A stretch of 64,000 bases of DNA from Arenicellaceae bacterium. GTDB lineage: Bacteria > Pseudomonadota > Gammaproteobacteria > Arenicellales > Arenicellaceae. Positions 5,266 to 64,000 of this stretch are shown here, piece after piece. The position numbers were made by a program, and so were the translations under genes. Positions within the stretch are counted from its first letter, which is position 1; each line of letters starts with the position of its first letter. The notes under the pieces are model-generated. The model did no database searches. It saw only the letters and a list, made by a program, of their open reading frames with translations, and was not told the origin of the DNA. The stretch lies in contig JAQWNC010000016.1 of assembly GCA_029246505.1 (NCBI GenBank), positions 1 through 64,000 on the forward strand. Reading direction: 5' to 3'.

Positions 5266-5342
5266 AGGCGCGTAGCTCAGCTGGTTAGAGCACTACCTTG
5301 ACATGGTAGGGGTCGGTGGTTCGAGTCCACTCGTGCCTACCA
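5266..5342 (+). tRNA. tRNA-Val (GAC)
   Basis: A 77-nt cloverleaf. Acceptor AGGCGCG pairs with CGTGCCT (one G-T pair), the discriminator is A and CCA is encoded. The D-arm is AGCTCAGCTGGTTAGAGC, the anticodon loop CTTGACA carries GAC, and the T-arm has GGTTCGAGTCC. It sits between uvrB and the infC leader with no terminator visible after it. Confidence 0.97.
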
Positions 5343-5465
5343 TTTCGCCGTTCTCAGAGTGCGTTTAATGGGATAATACTGGTTTGCTTGGATCGCATAT
5401 TTAACCTTCTTTAATGATGGCGAAATATAGATTAAAAACGAGCTTGGGGAATTTTGTTTAAGCGC

Positions 5466-62043: not shown

Positions 62044-62670
62044 TCAACATGCTATTCCAGTATTGCCCTCCTGCCATATCGGATGTTTTTGCATTACGGA
62101 ATTAAATAGCGGCGATTCCAGCCAGTAATCTAGCCAGTTTTTTAATTTGGGATAGGGAGCATCATCAAACCAGGCTTTGTCCACAAACGCAAATTGTCGA
62201 ATAAACGGAAAAATGGCTATATCCGCTAGTCGCACATGCTGGTCGATAAGGTACGTGTTAGCCGATAAGCGGGAATTTAGAATATCTAAAAATTCACCTG
62301 ATTTGTCACGATAATAACTTTGTGTGTGTTCAGGATAGCCAACCGAGTACTTATATTTATCTAGCCATGGTTTGAATTCAAAATCATTTTTCTCGATTAG
62401 CAGGGCCGATTGATCTGCTAGTGCTAGCCATTTATCGGGATCGTTTTGTAGCAGAGCCCAAAATATGATATCCATGCTTTCATCAAGAACTGTTCCATCT
62501 AGATCAATTAAAATAGGCACCGTTTGCTTACTGGATACTCGCAGTATTGTTGGCGGTTTGTCCTTTAGCGACACTTCGCGCAATTCTGTAACTTGTTCAG
62601 CATATTTTAATGCCATACGCGATCTGATCGCGTATGGGCATCGGCGAAAGGAATACAAAGTTGGCAGCAT
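62044..62670 (-). CDS. glutathione S-transferase family protein
   Basis: 208 residues: N-terminal glutaredoxin-like domain with LYSFRRCPYAIRSRMAL (Cys at residue 12), cis-Pro in QTVPIL and the glutathione-contact E-S in VLDESMDI. A helical C-domain follows, with RLADIAIFPFIRQFAFVD. CPYA resembles omega- and YfcG/Grx2-like GSTs, so thiol-disulfide exchange or deglutathionylation is more likely than classical conjugation. It converges on yheS. Base composition is like the neighbours, unlike the GST at 1.1 kb. Confidence 0.85.
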   Translation of the reverse strand: MLPTLYSFRRCPYAIRSRMALKYAEQVTELREVSLKDKPPTILRVSSKQTVPILIDLDGTVLDESMDIIFWALLQNDPDKWLALADQSALLIEKNDFEFKPWLDKYKYSVGYPEHTQSYYRDKSGEFLDILNSRLSANTYLIDQHVRLADIAIFPFIRQFAFVDKAWFDDAPYPKLKNWLDYWLESPLFNSVMQKHPIWQEGNTGIAC

Positions 62671-63053: not shown

Positions 63054-63626
63054 ATGTCTATAGATAGTTTAGGAAGCTTTGTAGGAAAGCTTTGCCAGGT
63101 AATAGAAGGCCACCCGACAGAAGAACAAATCTTGCAGGAAACTAAGTATTTAATGGCCGATTTGGTAAGTACCGATGACTGGCTTCCCGACCGTTATGCT
63201 ATGGCTAACCCTGATTATTACCAGCAATATTTGTTATATTGTGATGGTATGAAAAGGTTTTCAATTGTTAGCTTTGTTTGGGGGCCAGGACAAAAAACAC
63301 CGGTCCATGATCATACGGTTTGGGGTGTAATCGGGATGTTACGCGGGCAAGAGACTTCGCAACAATATTCTTTCAACAGCAATGGTGAACTAGTGGCAGG
63401 TCAGCGAGACATCTTATTACCAGGTGATGTCGAAACACTATCGCCTACCATTGGCGATATACATGAGGTTTCGAACGGACTTAGCGATCAAGATTCAATC
63501 AGTGTCCACGTGTATGGCGCTAACATAGGTGCAGTACACCGACACGTGTATGCGGTGCCAACAGGGGACAGGAAACCATTTGTTTCTGGTTATGCTAATT
63601 CTGAATTGCCGAATATCTGGCAATAA
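63054..63626 (+). CDS. thiol dioxygenase (cysteine or 3-mercaptopropionate dioxygenase)
   Basis: A 190-residue cupin non-haem iron enzyme that oxidises a thiol to a sulfinate. Iron ligands His85 and His87 (PVHDHTVWG) and His137; the Ser150-His152-Tyr154 triad (SVHVYG) is complete. The Arg that binds the cysteine carboxylate in animal CDO is not apparent; the corresponding stretch reads YYQQYLLYCD, with Gln, as in bacterial 3-mercaptopropionate dioxygenases. The next gene is a class III CoA-transferase, which also favours 3-mercaptopropionate over cysteine. Family certain, substrate inferred. Confidence 0.88.
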   Translation: MSIDSLGSFVGKLCQVIEGHPTEEQILQETKYLMADLVSTDDWLPDRYAMANPDYYQQYLLYCDGMKRFSIVSFVWGPGQKTPVHDHTVWGVIGMLRGQETSQQYSFNSNGELVAGQRDILLPGDVETLSPTIGDIHEVSNGLSDQDSISVHVYGANIGAVHRHVYAVPTGDRKPFVSGYANSELPNIWQ

Positions 63627-63660
63627 AACAAATCACTAAAAAATTGATGGGGCGTAGATA

Positions 63661-64000
63661 ATGACGATTAGTGATGCGGCGAGAGAGGCAAAACGCACTA
63701 TGCTTGTAGGGCTGAAGGTTATTGAGTTCGGGCAAATCGCAGCTGCGCCGTTTGCGGGAAGCCTTCTCGCAGATCTAGGTGCCGATGTAGTGAAAGTCGA
63801 ACGTCCTGGCGTTGGTGACGGTATGCGCCATTGGCCACCGGTATCAAAGGGCGAATCTGGTGAGGAGTACAGCGAGAATTTTGCTTCCGTCAACAGGAAT
63901 AAACGAAGTGTTTGTGCCGACCTCAAAGATCCGAGTGATATTGCTCGGATTAAAAGTTTATGCGAACAAGCTGATGTCTTGATCGAGAACTATCGACCGG
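63661..64000 (+). CDS. CaiB/BaiF class III CoA-transferase, 3'-truncated by window edge
   Basis: Open from ATG 63661 to the window end, 113 codons visible. GLKVIEFGQIAAAPFAGSLL, ADLGADVVKVERPG, NRNKRSVCADLKD and ADVLIENYRP are the standard N-terminal class III motifs; the catalytic Asp lies beyond the window. It starts 34 bases after the dioxygenase stop, so an operon is likely. By analogy with the 3-sulfinopropionate pathway it may activate 3-sulfinopropionate to its CoA ester. Confidence 0.88.
   Translation, partial: MTISDAAREAKRTMLVGLKVIEFGQIAAAPFAGSLLADLGADVVKVERPGVGDGMRHWPPVSKGESGEEYSENFASVNRNKRSVCADLKDPSDIARIKSLCEQADVLIENYRP

Follow-up and report, generated by a model that had tools for sequence, protein, structure and literature searches.

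The closest described relatives of the locus reported here are the mdo/acd/CoA-transferase cluster of Advenella mimigardefordensis DPN7 and the mdo/act/acdA cluster of Variovorax paradoxus TBEA6, both of which, like the present locus, pair a 3-mercaptopropionate dioxygenase (3MDO) with a class III CoA-transferase. In A. mimigardefordensis the genes run in the order transferase-Acd-dioxygenase, the transferase being of family III (PMC5373536), but SucCD, a ligase, has been credited with the CoA step, and the class III enzyme that has been characterised, Act, comes from V. paradoxus TBEA6 (PMC6370202). The initial annotation of the locus had given the Advenella pathway a class III transferase at the CoA step, a detail that needs correcting in this respect (PMC6370202). 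The mdo cluster of V. paradoxus TBEA6 also contains the crotonase-family genes Ech-20 and Ech-30, required for 3,3'-thiodipropionate and not for 3-sulfinopropionate, and Ech-20 binds TDP-CoA (PMC6370202); they resemble the crotonase described below in family and in their place in an mdo cluster. Solved 3MDO structures are those of P. aeruginosa (Pa3MDO; 3USS/4TLF) and A. vinelandii (Av3MDO; 6XB9), and in the latter the substrate carboxylate is held by Arg168 rather than by Gln (PMC8050391).

Gene order and genomic context

The window analysed here is a stretch of 64,000 nucleotides at the start of contig JAQWNC010000016.1 from an Arenicellaceae bacterium (assembly GCA_029246505.1; 2.64 Mb, 97.5% complete), and the contig extends to 76451, a further 12.4 kb. 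Near the end of the window lies a 3MDO, a thiol dioxygenase of the Gln type (63054-63626, plus strand, 190 aa), followed after a gap of 34 bases by a class III (CaiB/BaiF) CoA-transferase on the same strand (63661-64851 on the contig, 396 aa) whose first 113 codons (63661-64000) fall inside the window, an arrangement that the open reading frames confirm as initially annotated. A divergent crotonase of 243 aa begins beyond the window on the base after the transferase stop codon, a gap of zero (contig 64852-65583; L002:4853-5584). The locus differs from the Advenella and Variovorax clusters in having a crotonase and no Acd-like desulfinase nearby or found in the genome.

An ORF of 125 aa with an Mrr-type nuclease domain (contig 65576-65953; L002:5577-5954), also beyond the window, overlaps the crotonase end by 8 bases and has no known link to the pathway. 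Upstream of the dioxygenase, on the opposite strand, is a GST-family gene (62044-62670) that was not seen to recur with the dioxygenase, CoA-transferase and crotonase in the other 3MDO loci examined. A scan for promoters and terminators returned no more sites than shuffled sequence. Elsewhere in the window, an Rfam match to the antisense RNA HPnc0260 (5304-5440, minus strand) lies 1.4 bits over threshold, overlaps a tRNA-Val on the other strand, and is probably due to chance.

Dioxygenase substrate specificity

The closest solved relatives of the dioxygenase in a phmmer search of the PDB are the P. aeruginosa (3uss/4tlf, E 1.9e-69) and A. vinelandii (6xb9, E 2.3e-68) enzymes, with cysteine and mercaptosuccinate dioxygenases far weaker matches (E 1e-3 to 1e-7). 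Identity to Pa3MDO (3uss) is 57.5%, or 107 of 186 aligned residues. The features on which the initial annotation had relied, namely a three-His iron site, a Ser-His-Tyr triad and Gln in place of the Arg of cysteine dioxygenase (CDO), all align with Pa3MDO: H85, H87 and H137 with H89, H91 and H142, S150, H152 and Y154 with S155, H157 and Y159, and Q58 with Q62 at the CDO-Arg position. The Gln, the third His and the Ser-His-Tyr triad are invariant in 84 sequences, and the first two His are present in 83. R163, which the initial annotation did not mention, aligns with R168 of Pa3MDO, the Arg168 of the crystal structure, and of all the sequence features it most strongly favours 3-mercaptopropionate as the substrate over cysteine. 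Metal ligands, Gln, triad and Arg168 are common to Pa3MDO, Av3MDO and the Arenicellaceae enzyme, which would very probably act on 3-mercaptopropionate.

CoA-transferase and crotonase families

The CoA-transferase belongs to PF02515 (E 3.7e-119), and its catalytic Asp, D183, lines up with the Asp conserved in SUGCT, YfdE and 4ed9. Succinate-glutarate CoA-transferase is the nearest family in both the PDB (SUGCT 9br7, E 2.1e-86) and NCBIfam, yet the protein scores far under the equivalog cut-off. In a phylogenetic tree it groups with dioxygenase- or crotonase-linked transferases of other genomes (SH-aLRT 99), in a clade apart from the L153/L154 branch, which holds the transferase adjoining a true Acd in two Rhodospirillales-type MAGs. 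The branches of this tree are long and its deeper forks unsure, and its sequences do not include Act of V. paradoxus TBEA6.

The crotonase (PF00378, E 5.9e-28) has as its best solved relative 3isa (E 2.8e-34), a putative enoyl-CoA hydratase/isomerase from Bordetella parapertussis with which its subfamily has the motifs GAGVD and MPGLKFG in common. The canonical Glu144 is replaced by Asp112 and Glu164 by Gly132, and the loop before LGT is shortened; D112, G132 and the short loop are invariant in 18 diverse subfamily members, whereas FadB of the same genome keeps both Glu residues. The absence of Glu164 argues against an ordinary hydratase. A structure predicted for the subfamily member at L079 (pLDDT 91) matches crotonases with Z scores of 27-38, the highest being to 3ISA (Z 38.1, 47% identity); because the others are tied at lower scores (Z <=30), the fold does not point to a reaction. 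3ISA itself groups with the member at L162 (SH-aLRT 99), whose cluster also has a 3MDO. It was deposited as a putative enzyme with no stated function and, to our knowledge, has no tested one.

Conservation of the neighbourhood

Among 80 loci with a 3MDO relative, 29 carry both the transferase and the crotonase, no more than 1.2 kb away and on the dioxygenase strand, while 3 have the transferase only, 2 the crotonase only, 23 an adjacent rhodanese and 23 none of these. Crotonase and transferase are strongly associated (Fisher p 4e-16), and no locus of the 80 has both crotonase and rhodanese (p 1e-6), both p values being optimistic as the loci are related; the rhodanese-linked relatives contrast with the present locus, where the neighbours are CoA-transferase and crotonase. 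Gene order varies, being transferase-dioxygenase-crotonase elsewhere and dioxygenase-transferase-crotonase here, and the set is kept. A reverse test is cleaner than these counts: a crotonase profile run against the phylum matched 4 of 398 genomes (E 1e-93 to 1e-80, with nothing weaker down to 1e-42), and in all three besides its own the crotonase lies directly behind a transferase of 51-58% identity. One of these three (G752) also carries a 53% identical dioxygenase in the crotonase cluster.

The three genes do not always occur together. Some genomes hold the transferase-crotonase pair without the dioxygenase, in one case (G743) on a sulfonate/sulfite island, and a thiol dioxygenase occurs with the crotonase without a neighbouring transferase at L009, L025 and G466. 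A class-wide search found that in G466 the subfamily crotonase overlaps a distant cupin dioxygenase-like gene, and in G122 adjoins a molybdopterin oxidoreductase and a TRAP transporter. The cupin-like protein of G466 (L104:5328-5882, 185 aa) is 31% identical to 3MDO over 96 residues, has no Pfam or NCBIfam match, and its stop overlaps the crotonase start; it possibly represents a new group of thiol dioxygenases.

Other 3MDO clusters have further neighbours. Those of several alphaproteobacteria (L079:4932-5918, also L029, L041 and L067) encode, just ahead of a class III CoA-transferase from another clade, a protein resembling D-proline reductase PrdB/GrdB that scores below the cut-off. A fused iron-sulfur/molybdopterin oxidoreductase (980 aa) and a TauD-like dioxygenase adjoin the cluster of a Rhodospirillaceae MAG (L067:1865-4807). 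In Advenella sp. S44 (L030:3561-6310) an MmgE/PrpD protein and a fumarase-superfamily lyase resembling 3-sulfopropionylcysteine synthase XcbD lie upstream of the CoA-transferase-dioxygenase pair, and the products of these upstream genes might set the thiol free from a thioether.

The closest relative of the Arenicellaceae transferase-crotonase pair (58% and 45% identity, respectively) is the dioxygenase-less pair of G743. Within a few kb of it are a TauE/SafE sulfite exporter, a DmsC-like anchor and molybdopterin oxidoreductase (SoeABC-like), a sulfate permease, a Rieske oxygenase and SsuA-family transport genes. We infer from its partners that the molybdopterin subunit is SoeA, a name that no curated model gives it. 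SoeA orthologues (53-76% identity) occur in 22 of 28 genomes with a dioxygenase-crotonase locus versus 3 of 19 with a dioxygenase-rhodanese locus (Fisher p 3e-5).

Search for an Acd-type desulfinase

The initial annotation had placed an acyl-CoA dehydrogenase-like desulfinase after the transferase step. None is encoded on the 12.4 kb of contig past the window, where the divergent crotonase stands in its place. The oxidation and CoA activation steps of the annotated 3-mercaptopropionate pathway are supported by family, active site and neighbourhood; its Acd-type step is not. Profiles PF02771 and PF00441 found only two acyl-CoA dehydrogenases in the source genome. One is a glutaryl-CoA dehydrogenase (E 5e-173 to 3gnc); the other, a frame of 834 aa, shares about 26% identity with Acd. 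The solved Acd sequence (5AF7) had no match at E 1e-60 in this 97.5% complete genome.

True Acd (57-62% identity) was found in only four of the genomes searched, all alphaproteobacteria, in which the dioxygenase-linked transferase belongs to another clade. At L029, L041, L067 and L077 Acd is sited away from the dioxygenase, and the marine alphaproteobacteria L029 and L067 have a transferase-Acd pair that is distinct from their dioxygenase cluster. Simple mutual exclusion of Acd and the crotonase is rejected, as three alphaproteobacterial genomes (L029, L041 and L077) carry both. An Advenella acyl-CoA dehydrogenase (L130) with a suggestive Gly at the base position was also considered as an Acd and discarded in favour of the 5AF7 sequence itself, since its PDB match revealed no more than a distant relationship to 5AF7.

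Proposed pathway and alternatives

For the first two genes, the predicted function of oxidising 3-mercaptopropionate and then activating the product with CoA has good support from the families, active-site residues and conserved neighbourhood. The dioxygenase would very probably add O2 to the thiol to give 3-sulfinopropionate, judging from homology and active site, and the class III transferase probably then places CoA, likely from succinyl-CoA, on this product, as its family, gene position and precedent suggest. In A. mimigardefordensis Acd occupies the place that the crotonase takes here, and we propose that the crotonase may fill the role of the flavoprotein Acd of Advenella and Variovorax, breaking the C-S bond of 3-sulfinopropionyl-CoA to yield sulfite or an equivalent and a C3 acyl-CoA, a step to which the gene context points. 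We tentatively favour, at somewhat short of an even chance, the view that the three genes form an operon that breaks down 3-mercaptopropionate, or a closely similar omega-thiol carboxylate, with the crotonase as desulfinase. In its favour are the Pa3MDO-like residues with R163, the tight spacing of the genes and their recurrence as a set, the sulfite-handling genes near the G743 pair, the distribution of SoeA orthologues, the rarity of true Acd among the genomes searched, and the missing Glu164. The wider proposal, that the whole subfamily including 3ISA comprises flavin-free desulfinases of 3-sulfinopropionyl-CoA or a related sulfino-acyl-CoA, is conceivable but somewhat more doubtful. We know of no desulfinating crotonase, and a simple beta-elimination would yield acryloyl-CoA and sulfoxylate, not propionyl-CoA and sulfite. 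Also against the crotonase as desulfinase are the coexistence of Acd and crotonase at L029, L041 and L077, the absence of a neighbouring transferase at L009, L025 and G466, the lack of a SoeA orthologue in the source genome, and the need for the Variovorax mdo-cluster crotonases on thiodipropionate but not on 3-sulfinopropionate (PMC6370202). The Acd-crotonase coexistence, the transferase-less loci, the unprecedented chemistry and the upstream role in Variovorax together keep both forms of the desulfinase proposal tentative.

That upstream role suggests a different order of events, in which the CoA-transferase and crotonase would work ahead of the dioxygenase: a thioether acid R-S-CH2CH2-COOH, perhaps thiodipropionate-like or an S-carboxyethyl adduct, would be converted to its CoA ester, the thiol eliminated and the released 3-mercaptopropionate oxidised. 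Such an elimination is ordinary crotonase chemistry, the need for Ech-20 and Ech-30 on thiodipropionate and the binding of TDP-CoA by Ech-20 (PMC6370202) provide a precedent, and the separate transferase-Acd pair of L029 and L067 would fit; however, 3-sulfinopropionate would be left with no known desulfination route in the source genome and in all betaproteobacterial genomes tested, and the G743 pair beside sulfite-handling genes is not predicted, so that we regard this order as unlikely, if a serious competitor. Improbable in our estimation is that the substrate is another small thiol acid, from whose alpha-sulfino derivative the crotonase would expel SO2 and leave an enolate in the manner of methylmalonyl-CoA decarboxylase. 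An active site that keeps its acid at the Glu144 position and lacks Glu164 would, on general grounds, suit a lyase that forms an enolate better than a hydratase, and in G466 the crotonase has a cupin dioxygenase-like partner of another kind, but the dioxygenase, so similar to Pa3MDO, has the full set of 3MDO residues, among them R163, by which the carboxylate of a C3 thiol acid is positioned. More improbable still is a classical pathway with the acyl-CoA dehydrogenase-like desulfinase encoded elsewhere and the crotonase in a side role; pathway genes can be scattered, as the distant Acd genes noted above illustrate, and one could be missing from a genome that is 97.5% complete, yet the candidates recovered were the glutaryl-CoA dehydrogenase and the 834-aa frame.

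A literature search, to which most subscription papers were closed and which leaves novelty unproven, found no published description of the dioxygenase/CoA-transferase/crotonase module, nor a paper on a crotonase with 3-sulfinopropionate apart from the study of thiodipropionate in Variovorax and one passing mention. If the crotonase is indeed the desulfinase, it would be an independent replacement for the acyl-CoA dehydrogenase-fold enzyme and would extend the crotonase fold to a new reaction, and the solved but uncharacterised 3ISA would gain a testable function. A conserved alternative in bacteria with no known desulfinase would show how they return the sulfur of 3-mercaptopropionate to sulfite.
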